From Xenophilus aerolatus (GTDB lineage: Bacteria; Pseudomonadota; Gammaproteobacteria; Burkholderiales; Burkholderiaceae_C): 64,000 nucleotides of DNA. The position numbers and the translations under genes were made by a program. Below, in pieces: positions 19,921 through 24,794 of this stretch. The DNA is taken from the NCBI GenBank assembly GCA_029968055.1, contig JASCNX010000001.1:124001-188000 (forward strand). The letters are read 5' to 3'. The notes beneath the pieces were generated by a model. It was not told the origin of the DNA. It made no database searches and saw only the letters and a list, made by a program, of their open reading frames with translations. Positions within the stretch are counted from its first letter, which is position 1, and every line of letters starts with the position of its first letter.

Positions 19921-20793
19921 TCAGCGCAGCGTCTGCAGGTAGGCCGCGATGTCGCGTGCGTCCTGCTCGGTCACGCCCATCTGGGGCATCGCCGTGCCCG
20001 GCTTCACGGCCCGGGTCTCGCGCAGCCAGCGCACCATGCCTTCCGGCGTGTGGTCGAGCACGCCCGCGATGCGCGTGCGGCGGCCCATGCCGGCCAGTGG
20101 CGGGCCGACCTGCACCTGCGAGCCCGTCACCCCGGGGATGGTGTGGCAGGCATTGCAGGCGTACTGCGTCAGGGCCCGCTGCCCGCGCGCCGCGTCGGCC
20201 ACCCGCAGCGGCGCATCGGCCGCGGGGCCGCAGGCACCCGGCGCCGCGCCGGGCTGGCCGTCGTCGGAGGTGACGGCCCACCGGCCGCCCGTCATCGCGG
20301 CATAGCGCTCGGGCGTGAGCGTGGGCAGCGTGTCGACGAAGGCCACCACCGCCCAGAGTTCGGCGTCCGACAGCCGATGCTCCCAGGCCGGCATGCCGCT
20401 CATCTTGATGCCGTGGCGCGTGATCCAGTACAGCTCGCGCGGCTCCCAGCGGCGGCGGGCATCCACCAGCGGCCCGGGCAGGGGCTGCATGCTGCGGCCG
20501 ATCTCGCCCTGGGCGACGCCGGGGCCGCCGTGGCACTGCACGCACTTCTGCTGGTAGCAGGCCGCGCCGCGTGCGATGCGGGCCGGGTCGTCCATCGCGG
20601 GCGCCTCGACGCCGCGCGCCCGCAGCCGCACCGATCGGTGCATCGCATGTTCGAGCAGGGCGTAGACCGACTGGAAGTGCTGCTTCGTCGCCCCGACGTC
20701 GTACAGCCCGGCCTGAAGCACCACCGCGCCCACGGCCGCGCCCAGCGCGGCCGCGACGGCGAGGGTGAGCGTGACGGTCTTGAGGGTGCCCAT
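19921..20793 (-). CDS. Membrane-anchored diheme cytochrome c
   Basis: This 290-residue protein has an N-terminal transmembrane helix or uncleaved signal (residues 7-27), then two cytochrome c domains. The heme sites are CVQCH at 84-88 and CNACH at 213-217; Met ligands are probably in KMSGMP near 130 and AMPQMG near 267. The linker of about 50 residues is rich in Gly, Ala and Pro. It is divergent from the oxidase operon, 77 bases away, so it probably donates electrons to that oxidase or links it to a periplasmic dehydrogenase. It is convergent with the LysR gene. The pairing is by position only. Confidence 0.88.
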   Translation of the reverse strand: MGTLKTVTLTLAVAAALGAAVGAVVLQAGLYDVGATKQHFQSVYALLEHAMHRSVRLRARGVEAPAMDDPARIARGAACYQQKCVQCHGGPGVAQGEIGRSMQPLPGPLVDARRRWEPRELYWITRHGIKMSGMPAWEHRLSDAELWAVVAFVDTLPTLTPERYAAMTGGRWAVTSDDGQPGAAPGACGPAADAPLRVADAARGQRALTQYACNACHTIPGVTGSQVQVGPPLAGMGRRTRIAGVLDHTPEGMVRWLRETRAVKPGTAMPQMGVTEQDARDIAAYLQTLR

Positions 20794-20869
20794 CGGTTCA
20801 AGCCATTGTCCGACGCGAGGCGTTGCGATCGTGTCGGCCGATGCCGCCGACGGCCCGCAACAATGGGCC

Positions 20870-21307
20870 ATGTCCTCGACGCTTGCTGCACCTTCGCGCC
20901 CTGTCGTTTCGCAGCGCGGCGCGGGTGCGCGCGTCATGCTGCGCGGCGTGGGCGCGCTCGTCGGGCTGCTGGTGCTCGGCGGCTGCGACGGCGGCAGGCC
21001 CTTCGCGGCGCAGGCCGCCGACCGGGCACCGCAGATCGAGCGGGGCCGCGTGCTGCTGGCCCAGTACCAGTGCGGCAGCTGCCACACCATCCCGGGTGTG
21101 GCCGATGCTCGCGGTCGGCAGGCGGGCACGCTGGACGGCTTCGGGGCGCGCAGCTACATCGCGGGGCGGCTGCCCAACGAGCTGCCGGTGCTGGCGGCCT
21201 GGATCGCCGACCCGCGCGCGCTGGTGCCCACGACCACCATGCCGTCGATGGGCGCCTCGGCGGACGATGCGCTGGCCATGGCGACCTACCTGAACGCCCT
21301 GGAATGA
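20870..21307 (+). CDS. Monoheme cytochrome c lipoprotein, oxidase-associated
   Basis: This is a small class I cytochrome c. From ATG 20870 the product has 145 residues. A hydrophobic segment ends in a lipobox LGGC (Cys 39), followed by the heme motif CGSCH (68-72) and a probable distal Met in PTTTMPSMG near residue 125. A second ATG at 20936 begins MLRGVGALVG and would give a 123-residue protein with a more normal signal peptide. That shorter form may be the true one. Its stop overlaps the ATG of subunit II by four bases, so it is the first gene of the oxidase operon. Confidence 0.85.
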   Translation: MSSTLAAPSRPVVSQRGAGARVMLRGVGALVGLLVLGGCDGGRPFAAQAADRAPQIERGRVLLAQYQCGSCHTIPGVADARGRQAGTLDGFGARSYIAGRLPNELPVLAAWIADPRALVPTTTMPSMGASADDALAMATYLNALE

Positions 21308-22266
21308 GCGAAGGCATGTCCCGGCCGGCGCAGTCGGCGCTGCACGTGGGCGGCCCGGTGGCCGACACCCTGCTCGACGTGACGACGGTGCTGACCGTCG
21401 GCGCGGTGCTGATCTTCGGCGGCGTGATGCTGCTGCTGGCGATGTCGCTGCACGGTGGGCCGCGCCCGGTGCGGGCACGCTGGTGGCTGCTGGGCGGCGG
21501 CATCGCGTTCCCGGTCGCCGTGCTGTCGACGCTCTTCGTCTACGGCGAGCGCCACCGTCCCGCCTGGCGGCCTGTGCCGCCGGCCGATGCACTCGTTGTC
21601 TCCGTCACCGGACGCATGTGGTGGTGGGAGGTGCGCTACGACGACCCGCGCACCGGCCGGCGCTTCGCGACGGCCAACGAAATCCGCCTGCCGGCCGGGC
21701 GGCCGGTGTACTTCGCACTTGCCAGCGAGGACGTGATCCACAGCTTCTGGGTGCCGGCGCTCGGCGGCAAGATGGACATGGTGCCCGGCCGCATGCAGCA
21801 CCTGCTGCTGCAGGCCGACGCGCCCGGCCGCTGGCGCGGCCAGTGCGCCGAATATTGCGGCGAGCAGCATGCGCGCATGGCGCTCGACGTGGTGGCGCTG
21901 GCGCCGGCCGACTTCGAGGCCTGGGCCGATGCGCAGGCGCGACCCGTGCCGCCGCAGGATGCGCGCAACGTGCACGCCGGCCGCGCGGCCTTCCTGGCCC
22001 ACCGCTGCGACGCCTGCCACGCCGTTCGCGGCCTGACCTCGCCGGACCCGGACGGGCGCGACGGGCGCCGCGGCCCCGACCTCACGCACGTGGGCGGCCG
22101 GCTGTCGCTGGGCGCCGCCACCGTGCCCAACACGCCCGAGGCGATGCGCGAGTGGGTCGCCCACACGCAGCAGCTCAAGCCGGGCGTGCGCATGCCGGCC
22201 GGCGAGGGCCGCCTGCCGCCCGCGGCCATCGAGGACATCGCCGCCTGGCTCGGCGCATTGAAGTGA
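21304..22266 (+). CDS. coxB: Cytochrome c oxidase subunit II fused to cytochrome c (caa3 type)
   Basis: This 320-residue subunit II has two transmembrane helices (about residues 26-48 and 60-80) and a periplasmic CuA domain. The CuA ligands are His146, Cys181, Glu183, Cys185, His189 and Met192 (CAEYCGEQHARM). An extra cytochrome c domain follows, with CDACH at 235-239 and a candidate Met ligand at 297. This CuA-cytochrome fusion is the hallmark of caa3 oxidases. It lies between a monoheme lipoprotein and the fused subunit I-III gene, overlapping both. No heme A synthase, Cox11 or Sco gene is in the window, so assembly factors must be elsewhere. Confidence 0.94.
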   Translation: MSEGMSRPAQSALHVGGPVADTLLDVTTVLTVGAVLIFGGVMLLLAMSLHGGPRPVRARWWLLGGGIAFPVAVLSTLFVYGERHRPAWRPVPPADALVVSVTGRMWWWEVRYDDPRTGRRFATANEIRLPAGRPVYFALASEDVIHSFWVPALGGKMDMVPGRMQHLLLQADAPGRWRGQCAEYCGEQHARMALDVVALAPADFEAWADAQARPVPPQDARNVHAGRAAFLAHRCDACHAVRGLTSPDPDGRDGRRGPDLTHVGGRLSLGAATVPNTPEAMREWVAHTQQLKPGVRMPAGEGRLPPAAIEDIAAWLGALK

Positions 22267-24794
22267 TGCAGGAACACGCCGACCGCTTCCCCAGCAGCCT
22301 GCCGCGCCCGCCCGGCGAGCGCGAGGCGCTGGAGCGCGCGTGGGAAAGCCCGCGCGGCTGGCGGCGCTTCACGGCGGTCAACAACACGCACATCGGCGCG
22401 TACTACATCGTCGCGGCGATGGTGTTCTTCGTGCTCGGCGGCATCCTCGCGCTGCTGATGCGCGCGCAGCTGGCGGTGCCGGGCAACGACCTGGTGGGCG
22501 CGGCCACCTACAACCAGCTCTTCACCATGCACGGCACGGTGATGATGTTCCTGTTCGCGGTGCCCATCGTCGAGGCGATCGCGGTCTACCTGCTGCCGGG
22601 CATGCTGGGCGCGCGCGACCTGCCGTTCCCGCGGCTGTCGGCCTATGCCTTCTGGGCCTACGCGATCGGCGGGCTCGCCTTCTTCTGCACGGTGTTCTTC
22701 GGCGCCTCGCCCGACGGCGGCTGGTTCATGTACCCGCCGCTGACCAGCAAGCAGTATTCGCCGGGCGTCGGCGCGGACTTCTGGCTGCTGGGCATCGGCT
22801 TCATCGAGATCTCGGCCATCGCCGGTGCGATCGAGCTGATCATCGGCATCCTCTTCACCCGCGCGCCGGGCATGACGCTGGGCCGCATGCCGGTGTTCGC
22901 CTGGGCGGTGCTGGTGAGCGCGGTGATGATCGTCTTCGCCTTCCCGGCCGTGATCGCCGCCACCACGCTGCTGGAGCTGGAGCGGGCTTTCGACTGGCCC
23001 TTCTTCCTGCCGCAGCGCGGCGGCGACCCGGTGCTGTGGCAGCACCTGTTCTGGTTCTTCGGGCACCCCGAGGTCTACATCATCTTCCTGCCGGCCGCGG
23101 GCATGGTGTCGATGATGGTGCCGACGATGGCCGGCACGCCGCTGGTGGGGCAGCGCGCGGTCGTGTGGGCGCTGGTGGGCGTGGGCGTGGTGAGCTTCCT
23201 GCTGTGGATCCACCACATGTTCGCCACGGGCATCGGCATCACTGCGCTGGTGCTGACCTCGATGGCCAGCTTCGTGGTGGCCATTCCGAGCGGGCTGCAG
23301 GTCTTCGCGTGGATCGCCACCTTCTGGCGCGGGCGGGTGCGCGCGCAGTCGCCCACGCTCTTCCTGCTGGGCTTCCACTTCATCTTCGTGCTGGGCGGCC
23401 TCACGGGCGTCATGGTGGCGGTGCTGCCCTTCGACTGGCAGGCGCACGACAGCTACTTCATCGTCGCGCACCTGCATTACGTGCTCATCGGCGGCATGGT
23501 GTTCCCGGTCTTCGCGGCCATCTACTACTGGCTGCCGGTGTTCAACGGCGCGCGGCTATCGGAGCGGCTGGGGCGTTGGGTCTTTGCACTGATGTTCGGT
23601 GGGTTCAACCTGGCCTTCTTCCCGATGCACATCGCGGGGCTGCTGGGCATGCCGCGGCGCGTGTACACCTATGCCGACGGGCTGGGCTGGAACCTGCTGA
23701 ACCTGCTCTCGACGGTGGGCGCTTTCGTCTTCGCGATCGGCGTGCTGCTGTGCTTCGTCGATGCGGTGCGCGCGCTGCGCCGGCCCGAGCGCGATCATGG
23801 CAACCCGTGGCGGGCCGGCACGCTCGAATGGCTGCCGCCGCGCGACTACGGCGTGCGCAGCATCCCGCAGGTGGGCAGCACCGAGCCGCTGTGGGACCGG
23901 CCCACGCTGGCCGAGGAGGTCGAGGCCGGCCGCCACTGGTTGCCCGGCACCGTCTTCGGCGGCCGCGAGACGCTGGTGACCAGCGTGCGCGCGGCCCGGC
24001 CGCTGCACCTGCTGCGCCTGCCCACCGACGGCTGGCCGCCCTTCCTCGCGGCGGTCGGCACGGCCGGCTTCTTCCTGCTGCTCACGGTGGAGTGGATGGT
24101 GCCGGCCTTCGTCTTCGGCGCCGGCGCCATCGCGTCGATGGTGGTCTGGCTGTGGGGCTCGGACCGGGCGGCGCCGGCCGACCGTGCCGAAGTGGCGACC
24201 GGCGTCTTCGTGCCCGTCGGCGCGACCGGCCGGGGCACCCACTCCTGGTGGGCGGTGGTGGTGCTGGGGGTGGTGGACTTCGCCATCCTGGCCTCCTTCC
24301 TTTACACCTACGTGCACCTCGCGATGGCGCTGGACGTGTGCCCGCCGCCCGGCGCGTCACTCGCGCCGGCCATGGCTTCGGGCGCCAACGCGGCGCTGCT
24401 GGTCGCCGGCTCGCTGCTCATGGCCTGGAGCACGCGTGCCCGGCTCGGCGAGGGCGCCCGTGCGCAGCGCGGCGTGCGCCTGCGCACGGCGCTGGCGCTG
24501 TCGTGCGCTGCCGGGGCGTTCGCATCGGCGCTGGCCGGGCATGCGGCGGTCGGCCTGCAGCCCACGGCCGACGGCTGGAGCGCGGCGGTGGGCGTGCTGC
24601 TGGCCTACCAGGGCTTCCACCTGGCGGTGCTGGCGGTGGTGGGCGTCTACCTGGTGGCGCGCTCGGCGTCTGGCCACCTCGGGCCGCGCGCGCGGGCCAC
24701 GCTCGACAACGTGGCGCTGCTCTGGCACATCGCGACCGCGCAGGGCCTGCTCAGCGAGGCCACGGTGCGCGGCGTGCCGGCTTGGCTGGGCTGA
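22266..24794 (+). CDS. Cytochrome c oxidase subunit I-III fusion with atypical proton channels
   Basis: This 842-residue protein is subunit I (about 1-560) fused to a subunit III-like tail of five or so helices (about 620-842). Heme and copper ligands are all present: His89 (low-spin heme), His267 and Tyr271 (HPEVY), His316/His317, and His402/His404. The D-pathway acid (Asp118) and Glu269 are kept. By my alignment two conserved D-pathway asparagines are Val107 and Ser125, and the K-pathway lysine is Gln345 (IPSGLQVF in place of the usual TGxKVF). The ATG at 22266 overlaps the subunit II stop. Redox activity seems intact; proton pumping efficiency is open to question. Confidence 0.93.
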   Translation: MQEHADRFPSSLPRPPGEREALERAWESPRGWRRFTAVNNTHIGAYYIVAAMVFFVLGGILALLMRAQLAVPGNDLVGAATYNQLFTMHGTVMMFLFAVPIVEAIAVYLLPGMLGARDLPFPRLSAYAFWAYAIGGLAFFCTVFFGASPDGGWFMYPPLTSKQYSPGVGADFWLLGIGFIEISAIAGAIELIIGILFTRAPGMTLGRMPVFAWAVLVSAVMIVFAFPAVIAATTLLELERAFDWPFFLPQRGGDPVLWQHLFWFFGHPEVYIIFLPAAGMVSMMVPTMAGTPLVGQRAVVWALVGVGVVSFLLWIHHMFATGIGITALVLTSMASFVVAIPSGLQVFAWIATFWRGRVRAQSPTLFLLGFHFIFVLGGLTGVMVAVLPFDWQAHDSYFIVAHLHYVLIGGMVFPVFAAIYYWLPVFNGARLSERLGRWVFALMFGGFNLAFFPMHIAGLLGMPRRVYTYADGLGWNLLNLLSTVGAFVFAIGVLLCFVDAVRALRRPERDHGNPWRAGTLEWLPPRDYGVRSIPQVGSTEPLWDRPTLAEEVEAGRHWLPGTVFGGRETLVTSVRAARPLHLLRLPTDGWPPFLAAVGTAGFFLLLTVEWMVPAFVFGAGAIASMVVWLWGSDRAAPADRAEVATGVFVPVGATGRGTHSWWAVVVLGVVDFAILASFLYTYVHLAMALDVCPPPGASLAPAMASGANAALLVAGSLLMAWSTRARLGEGARAQRGVRLRTALALSCAAGAFASALAGHAAVGLQPTADGWSAAVGVLLAYQGFHLAVLAVVGVYLVARSASGHLGPRARATLDNVALLWHIATAQGLLSEATVRGVPAWLG

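Follow-up and report, generated by a model that had tools for sequence, protein, structure and literature searches.

A fusion of subunits I and III of cytochrome oxidase (COX1-3) is known from proteobacteria. It was described as 'COX operon type a' (PMC4013037) and later renamed A1 subtype a (PMC6431628), with R. palustris BisA53 as a named example and Variovorax paradoxus in a figure legend. The passages considered treat architecture and phylogeny, and no change of K- or D-channel residues in these proteins was found described in them. The caa3 oxidase of Thermus thermophilus (2yev) also has fused subunits I and III. Here we consider a gene from a 64,000-nucleotide stretch of Xenophilus aerolatus DNA (contig JASCNX010000001.1 of assembly GCA_029968055.1, positions 124,001–188,000 of the forward strand; the window, numbered from its first letter). 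The gene, located at 22266–24794 on the plus strand, is an open reading frame (ORF) of 842 amino acids (aa) encoding P0001, a cytochrome oxidase subunit I–III fusion that resembles COX operon type a by architecture. Judged from its sequence, P0001 is best read as an accessory caa3-like cytochrome c oxidase of the A family, an offshoot without the K-pathway lysine.

Identity of P0001 and its channel residues

Translation of P0001 reveals no internal stop, and the reading frame is intact. The protein marginally passes the NCBIfam profile TIGR02891 (CtaD_CoxA), with 672.3 bits at the cut-off of 670.75, and the Pfam COX1 match covers residues 43–488. The Pfam COX3 profile has no match in the C-terminal part. 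In phmmer, residues 32–827 align to the I+III chain of Thermus caa3 (2yev_A), and the same chain is the top fold match in the Protein Data Bank for the AlphaFold model of P0001 (template modelling, TM, scores 0.83/0.90, 31% identity), the model itself having a mean predicted local distance difference test (pLDDT) score of 88.4 and a predicted TM (pTM) score of 0.92. Since both the alignment and the fold match lead to 2yev_A, P0001 is assigned as a I–III fusion. Subunit III fused to subunit I is a caa3 trait known for Thermus caa3, although not for every caa3.

The position of the K-pathway lysine is occupied in P0001 by Gln345 (codon 23298–23300), as an earlier note on this DNA had suggested. 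The numbering was fixed via the aa3 subunit of the same genome aligned to that of Paracoccus (Pd; 1ar1), which makes Q345 the equivalent of Pd K354 and Rhodobacter (Rs) K362; the Rs numbers are Pd plus 8, those listed in PMC6934443 being taken from there. The assignment is borne out by an ungapped HMMER alignment of ipsglQvfaw with IPTGVKIFNW (aa3-600) and VPTGIKFFNW (9wcx), and by MAFFT, where 36 ORFs have their PTGxK lysine in the Q345 column. A lysine displaced within helix VIII would have changed this picture, but none is found at residues 325–355, K162 being the sole lysine of the protein.

All heme, copper and tyrosine ligands are present, again in agreement with the earlier note: the six histidines 89, 267, 316, 317, 402 and 404, and Tyr271 at the predicted site of the cross-linking tyrosine. 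The D-pathway entrance Asp118 (22617–22619; Pd D124, Rs D132) is retained, as is Glu269 (23070–23072; Pd E278, Rs E286), the A1-type glutamate of the GHPEVY motif. The MAFFT alignment also confirms that two D-pathway asparagines are replaced, by Val107 (22584–22586; Pd N113, Rs N121) and by Ser125 (22638–22640; Pd N131, Rs N139, bovine N98). Beyond these, the third asparagine is replaced by Glu190 (22833–22835; Pd N199, Rs N207), and the alignment yields three more new acids, Glu103 in helix II (22572–22574; Pd G109), Glu181 in helix IV (22806–22808; Pd G190) and Glu237 in helix V (22974–22976).

The new acids were placed by alignment and helix limits, not by atomic distances. Given the helix limits of the model and the topology of these oxidases, helix IV would have E190 at the gate, close to its inner end, and E181 nine residues farther up, adjoining the D-channel serines (S183 is Pd S192) below Glu269. 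On helix II, E103 is likely separated from V107 by one turn, lying about a turn deeper, and in helix V, E237 would be close to the outer end. Glu237 might belong to the proton exit or to the contact with the fused subunit III.

Conservation and phylogeny of the lysine-free state

Our sample had 142 loci, 141 of them matched, and yielded 146 Cox1 ORFs without L005, a duplicate of L003; L004, by its Pfam hit another COX1-family gene of the window's own genome, had no tblastn match. Position 345 is Gln in 97 ORFs, Lys in 36, Ala in eight and Thr in one, and four fragments (L018, L024_2, L057, L130_2) provide no usable column. L018, L024 and L057 are partial in their assemblies, with a frameshift or contig break near residues 250–350. 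L006 and L074 are identical and both counted, so that the 97 Gln rows correspond to 96 distinct ones. Three Gln ORFs (L024_1, L066, L078) are cut-off members of the fused kind and are kept apart from the 28 unfused ones, and L086, which has no start, is in neither group. The Lys rows were selected by similarity to P0001 and hence are a sample, not a census, with no lysine-type fusions such as that of Thermus included.

As the Gln group is defined by residue 345, a count of Gln within it would be circular, and the tree and the count of fused-length ORFs serve as independent tests. The trait columns were removed before tree building, together with rows having more than 15% gaps and near-duplicates (>80% identity; 97% for Ala rows), leaving 89 of the 146 rows; the Thr row is absent. 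One branch with support 100/99 splits 24 Lys rows from 65 lysine-free rows (57 Gln, 8 Ala). The residue-345 label changes twice in all on this tree, compared with a mean of 28.3 for shuffled labels. Apart from L129, the Gln rows, 56 in number, form one group (support 100/98). In this sample the lysine-free state has a single origin. The second test gives Gln345 in all 65 ORFs of fused length (780–870 aa); those carrying Lys, Ala or Thr there reach 726 aa at most. Further, Q345, E103, E181, E190 and E237 are invariant in the 47 fused ORFs aligned.

The remaining Gln row of the tree, L129, comes from a metagenome-assembled genome (MAG) of Actinobacteria. It groups with the Ala clade (support 99/92), the two together being sister to the 56 remaining Gln rows, and in both N107, N125, N190 and G181 are kept. 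Since all three asparagines are retained there, the simplest reading is that loss of the K lysine probably preceded the D-side changes, which then took place in the main clade; this order is provisional, L129 being a long branch.

The sister group consists of nine ORFs (L054, L055, L056, the second gene of L083, L115, L116, L120, L123, L126), eight with Ala and one with Thr at the K lysine. In these, Trp replaces the D-pathway glutamate (GHPWVY or AHPWVY), Asp is found at position 283, and Asp118 and all three asparagines are kept; by motif the group is neither A1 nor A2.

Judged by record titles, the lysine-free side of the tree contains members of three proteobacterial classes (alpha, beta and gamma), in addition to MAGs labelled as Bacteriovoracaceae, Gemmatimonadales, Rokuibacteriota and Actinobacteria. 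By score alone (>480 bits, the next scores being about 412 after a gap), such a gene is present in 20 of 150 genomes of the same family and in 25 of 299 sampled from the whole phylum, the two samples overlapping. For 19 of the 20 same-family carriers (the exception is G097), the matches listed include a further canonical-length hit of about 40% identity, with the K residue checked in the genome of the window only. That genome has four COX1-family genes. One of them (L001) is a canonical aa3 that keeps the K-pathway lysine (AVPTAVKIFNW), and another (L002), from reading its sequence a bo3-like protein, keeps it as well (IPTGAKIFNW). A relative encoded on pSymB of Sinorhizobium meliloti 1021, a laboratory strain (NC_003078.1, 1033644–1036160), has SGIQVFSW and the equivalents of E103, E181 and E190.

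Residues that changed along with the lysine

In the 65 fused ORFs, E103, E181, E190 and E237 are present without exception, and Asn is never seen at position 107. Position 125 is Ser in 47, Gly in ten, Thr in six and Ala in two, position 118 is Asp in 60 and Glu in five, and position 269 is Glu in 61 and Asp in four. The 28 unfused Gln ORFs have Asn at position 125 in 27 cases and Thr in one; E181 occurs in 27 of them, E103 and E190 in 19 each (Gln instead of E103 in seven), and E237 in one. At position 118, these unfused relatives (e.g. L106, L108, L049, L021) have Asn in 16 cases, Ser in seven and Asp in five. With the entrance aspartate also gone in most of them, both textbook entrances are missing there.

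The earlier note had described these changes as a loss of the lysine and of the asparagine ring. The replacements themselves hold for P0001, but they are not a simple loss: because Gln345 and the four glutamates are kept in every fused relative, the channel paths look rebuilt. Nor is the loss of the asparagine ring uniform across the clade, as 27 of the 28 unfused Gln relatives keep Asn at the Ser125 site.

E181 is found in 95 of the 96 Gln-type ORFs with a letter in this column and in none of the 36 Lys-type ORFs; the latter also lack E103, E190 and E237, and all 36 carry Asn at each of the three gate sites. In subunit II, counted at loci with a CuA-containing ORF within 4 kb, the glutamate marking the mouth of the K pathway occurs in 29/29 Lys-type, 0/86 Gln-type and 0/4 Ala-type rows. 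In the window the corresponding residue (Rs E101-II) is Leu63 of subunit II (21490–21492, plus strand, by alignment). Position 283 is E, Q or H in 33/36 Lys-type ORFs, versus T, M, S or A in 92/97 Gln-type ORFs. We saw no replacement acid or base in helices VI–VIII that would be present in at least 70% of the Gln-type rows and gained relative to the Lys-type rows. The nearest candidate is position 297, Arg in P0001, which is basic in 51/97 Gln-type versus 11/36 Lys-type ORFs.

One more position is of note where helix IV ends, close to the mouth of the D pathway: P0001 and ten other Gln-type rows have Phe there (Phe197, 22854–22856), and 77 of the 97 Gln-type rows have Lys or Arg.

Proton routes

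In canonical enzymes, one to two protons are taken up via the K route in the reductive phase and the rest via the D route (PMC6934443, PMC8361435, PMC12901375). The K319M mutation blocks heme a3 reduction, and in N98D, N98T and N98S, that is, at the Ser125 site, O2 reduction is said to persist without pumping (PMC12901375). When a K mutant (written K316M) is combined with N98D or N98T, the Pr to F transition is restored (PMC12901375), and Rs N139D and N207D uncouple pumping (PMC6934443). P0001 combines the N98S equivalent, an acid at N207 and the lost K lysine.

In both proton uptake and pumping, the family probably departs from the textbook enzyme. The proposal of the earlier note, that protons may take another route or that pumping may be reduced, is plausible, and it gains weight from the conservation in the clade, the loss of the subunit II glutamate and the new glutamates. 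Among the specific readings, we favour proton uptake on the D side along a path lined by carboxylates, with pumping weak or absent, and consider its chance to be nearly even. The A-family offshoot would have lost the lysine route once, after which the D side would have been rebuilt with carboxylates. The protons of the reductive phase, canonically using the K route, would then pass mainly through the carboxylate-lined D side, and Gln345 may have been retained for neutral hydrogen bonding close to the binuclear centre. Opening of the asparagine gate would cost pumping, leaving O2 reduction with weak or no pumping beyond the normal charge separation. Such an enzyme could act as a fast or emergency oxidase beside the canonical pumping aa3.

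Several points weigh against D-side uptake with weak pumping. The strongest one, as regards simple abandonment of the K route, is that the glutamine does not drift, being kept in 56 of 56 main-clade tree rows. The hydroxyl residues of the K route also persist in the Gln-type ORFs, S282 in 92/97 and Ser or Thr at 342 in 79/97. Taken together, this fits a K route that is still used without its lysine, Gln345, Ser342, Ser282 and Tyr271 forming a neutral chain of hydrogen bonds and water as in the B-type, with the entry elsewhere and the D side pumping about normally. B-type K-channels indeed use Thr, Ser and Tyr without Lys (PMC3084760), and an acid four columns before the lost subunit II glutamate, seen in 14 of 87 Gln rows, might provide a shifted entrance in some members, though not in P0001. 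On the other hand, the entrance glutamate of subunit II is absent in 86/86, E, Q or H at position 283 is nearly always lost, canonical K mutants block heme a3 reduction (PMC12901375), and the new glutamates are left unexplained. We rank a lysine-free K route below D-side uptake, as possible but unlikely.

A further difficulty is that the extra glutamates could restore coupling. The enzyme would then be a fully coupled pump, with E190, E103 and E181 as a new gate or loading chain and E237 on the exit side. The constancy of the four acids in 65/65 fused ORFs from alpha-, beta- and gammaproteobacteria and a Bacteriovoracaceae MAG speaks for this, and the mammalian equivalents of the D-gate mutants N139D and N207D reportedly still pump, with no effect on pumping (PMC6934443). 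However, for bacterial enzymes pumping is reportedly abolished when N207 is replaced by an acid or the N139 site carries Ser (PMC12901375, PMC6934443), and the unfused relatives have E237 in only one of 28 cases and are variable at positions 118 and 190. We regard a rebuilt pump as rather improbable and prefer D-side uptake over it as well.

The remaining points against concern the mutants and the history. An H-pathway interpretation has been offered for such mutants (PMC12901375). The loss of the K lysine and that of the subunit II glutamate fall on one branch, so that their association is not replicated, and the order of events depends on the Ala clade and a single MAG row with a long branch, L129.

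It is very unlikely that the enzyme has another main job, such as reduction of nitric oxide or keeping the chain oxidised during metabolism by pyrroloquinoline quinone (PQQ) dehydrogenases, so that pumping would matter little. A PQQ dehydrogenase family flanks 14 of 65 lysine-free loci, and inactivation of coxMNOPQ in C. necator had no fitness effect in the conditions tested (PMC11540253). Yet the A1 catalytic residues and the CuA ligands are all intact, no PQQ dehydrogenase was identified beside the window gene, and the C. necator and KF707 proteins are at most candidate members of the lysine-free clade.

Finally, the changes might be neutral ones in a decaying or compositionally biased GC-rich gene, as the single lysine in 842 aa could suggest, but we reject this, with hardly any chance left to it: the ratio of nonsynonymous to synonymous substitution rates (dN/dS) is 0.11 relative to the 96% identical X. 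aerolatus gene L074 (the same sequence as L006, from a genus-mate of the window organism), 0.24 relative to L007 and 0.34 relative to Variovorax L063, the lysine-free state is shared by the whole clade in the tree split, the aa3 of the same genome retains its K-pathway lysine, and L105, with 22 lysines at a locus of 43% GC, still has Gln345 and all four glutamates. Thus the substitution is not a sporadic event in a decayed gene, the other objection that the earlier note had foreseen.

Neighbouring genes

The subunit II gene (21304–22266, plus strand) is directly upstream, and its stop codon overlaps the start codon of P0001. It encodes a CuA site (PF00116) with intact ligands and a C-terminal cytochrome c domain (PF00034 at 224–319), with the motifs CAEYCGEQHARM and CDACH. 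A heme c domain on subunit II is characteristic of caa3 oxidases, that of Thermus included. The start of the subunit II gene is overlapped by an ORF for a small c-type cytochrome with the CGSCH motif (20765–21307, plus strand), whose start codon is uncertain and which has no Pfam match. Further upstream is a divergent di-heme cytochrome c region (19921–20700, minus strand) with two PF13442 and two PF00034 stretches, a possible electron donor. The presence of this region and the small cytochrome beside the oxidase (19921–21307) suggests a dedicated electron donor.

Clustering of the neighbours at lysine-free loci recovers mainly subunit II and shadow ORFs on the opposite strand, with PQQ dehydrogenase, UPF0093 or small cytochrome genes near a minority of loci; no extra subunit universal to these loci was seen in it. 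The PQQ dehydrogenase family is upstream in ten of its 14 cases (e.g. L119:1742-3664). The UPF0093 family flanks 13/65 loci, always upstream (L091:4285-4758), and a glucose/sorbosone dehydrogenase family flanks 6/65 (L082:803-2134). The three families were assigned from a Pfam scan of one representative each.

Comparison with known systems

P0001 has the A-family (A1) traits of six histidines, the tyrosine, the GHPEVY glutamate, the entrance aspartate and, marginally, homology to CtaD. It lacks Asn at Pd 113, 131 and 199 and Lys354, and its partner lacks the subunit II entrance glutamate. Under the residue definition of PMC3084760, P0001 falls outside the A-type in its K-channel and D-channel asparagines because of the replaced residues, while the catalytic features tested agree with it. 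The A2 subtype is rejected, as YSHPxVY is absent and FGHPEVY is found instead, and so are the B- and C-types, since D118 and E269 are present and the NCBIfam SoxB profile scores 99.9 bits at a cut-off of 700. Thermus caa3, the best fold match, belongs to subclass A2, whereas P0001 has the A1 motif.

With the canonical A1 aa3 enzymes (Paracoccus, Rhodobacter, mitochondrial) P0001 shares the metal ligands, Tyr271, Glu269, Asp118 and CuA. It differs from them in that the K lysine, the subunit II glutamate and the three D-path asparagines are replaced at its locus, and four new conserved glutamates are present.

The unfused lysine-free relatives come from hosts similar to those of the coxMNOP oxidases (Bradyrhizobium, Mesorhizobium, Caballeronia), and span 614–644 aa from the match start, with CoxN of KF707 given as 66 kDa (PMC5492768). 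That they are coxN is a lead only, drawn from hosts and size rather than alignment. The KF707 cox promoter is reported to be very weakly expressed (PMC5492768).

The relative on pSymB of S. meliloti 1021 makes the question directly testable. Annotated plasmid matches, among the matches listed, are nearly always named just 'ctaD' (the K residue was checked for S. meliloti 1021 only), and metabolic models that rely on this annotation may set the coupling efficiency too high.

The COX1-3 architecture is already known, and so is the loss of the K-channel in archaeal family A oxidases, which occurred seven times under one hypothesis (PMC8239418); the likeness of the latter to P0001 is one of description only. 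In the passages considered, we found no description of the P0001 residue set or of Gln at the K position in a proteobacterial fusion clade, and prior mention is possible.

Accounts of A-family oxidases give them both a D and a K route. The way in which these enzymes separate pumped from chemical protons has long been disputed, mostly on the basis of engineered mutants. A conserved lysine-free clade with acids at the decoupling sites provides evolved counterparts of those mutants. Tentatively, and granting it a minority chance, we suggest that a widespread A-family class gave up the K pathway, the D pathway becoming the single carboxylate-lined intake for all protons. If so, evolution took the step of the laboratory double mutants, in which a decoupling change at the D gate partly rescues a K-pathway mutant, and the class would be the mirror image of the B- and C-type enzymes, which use the K side only.

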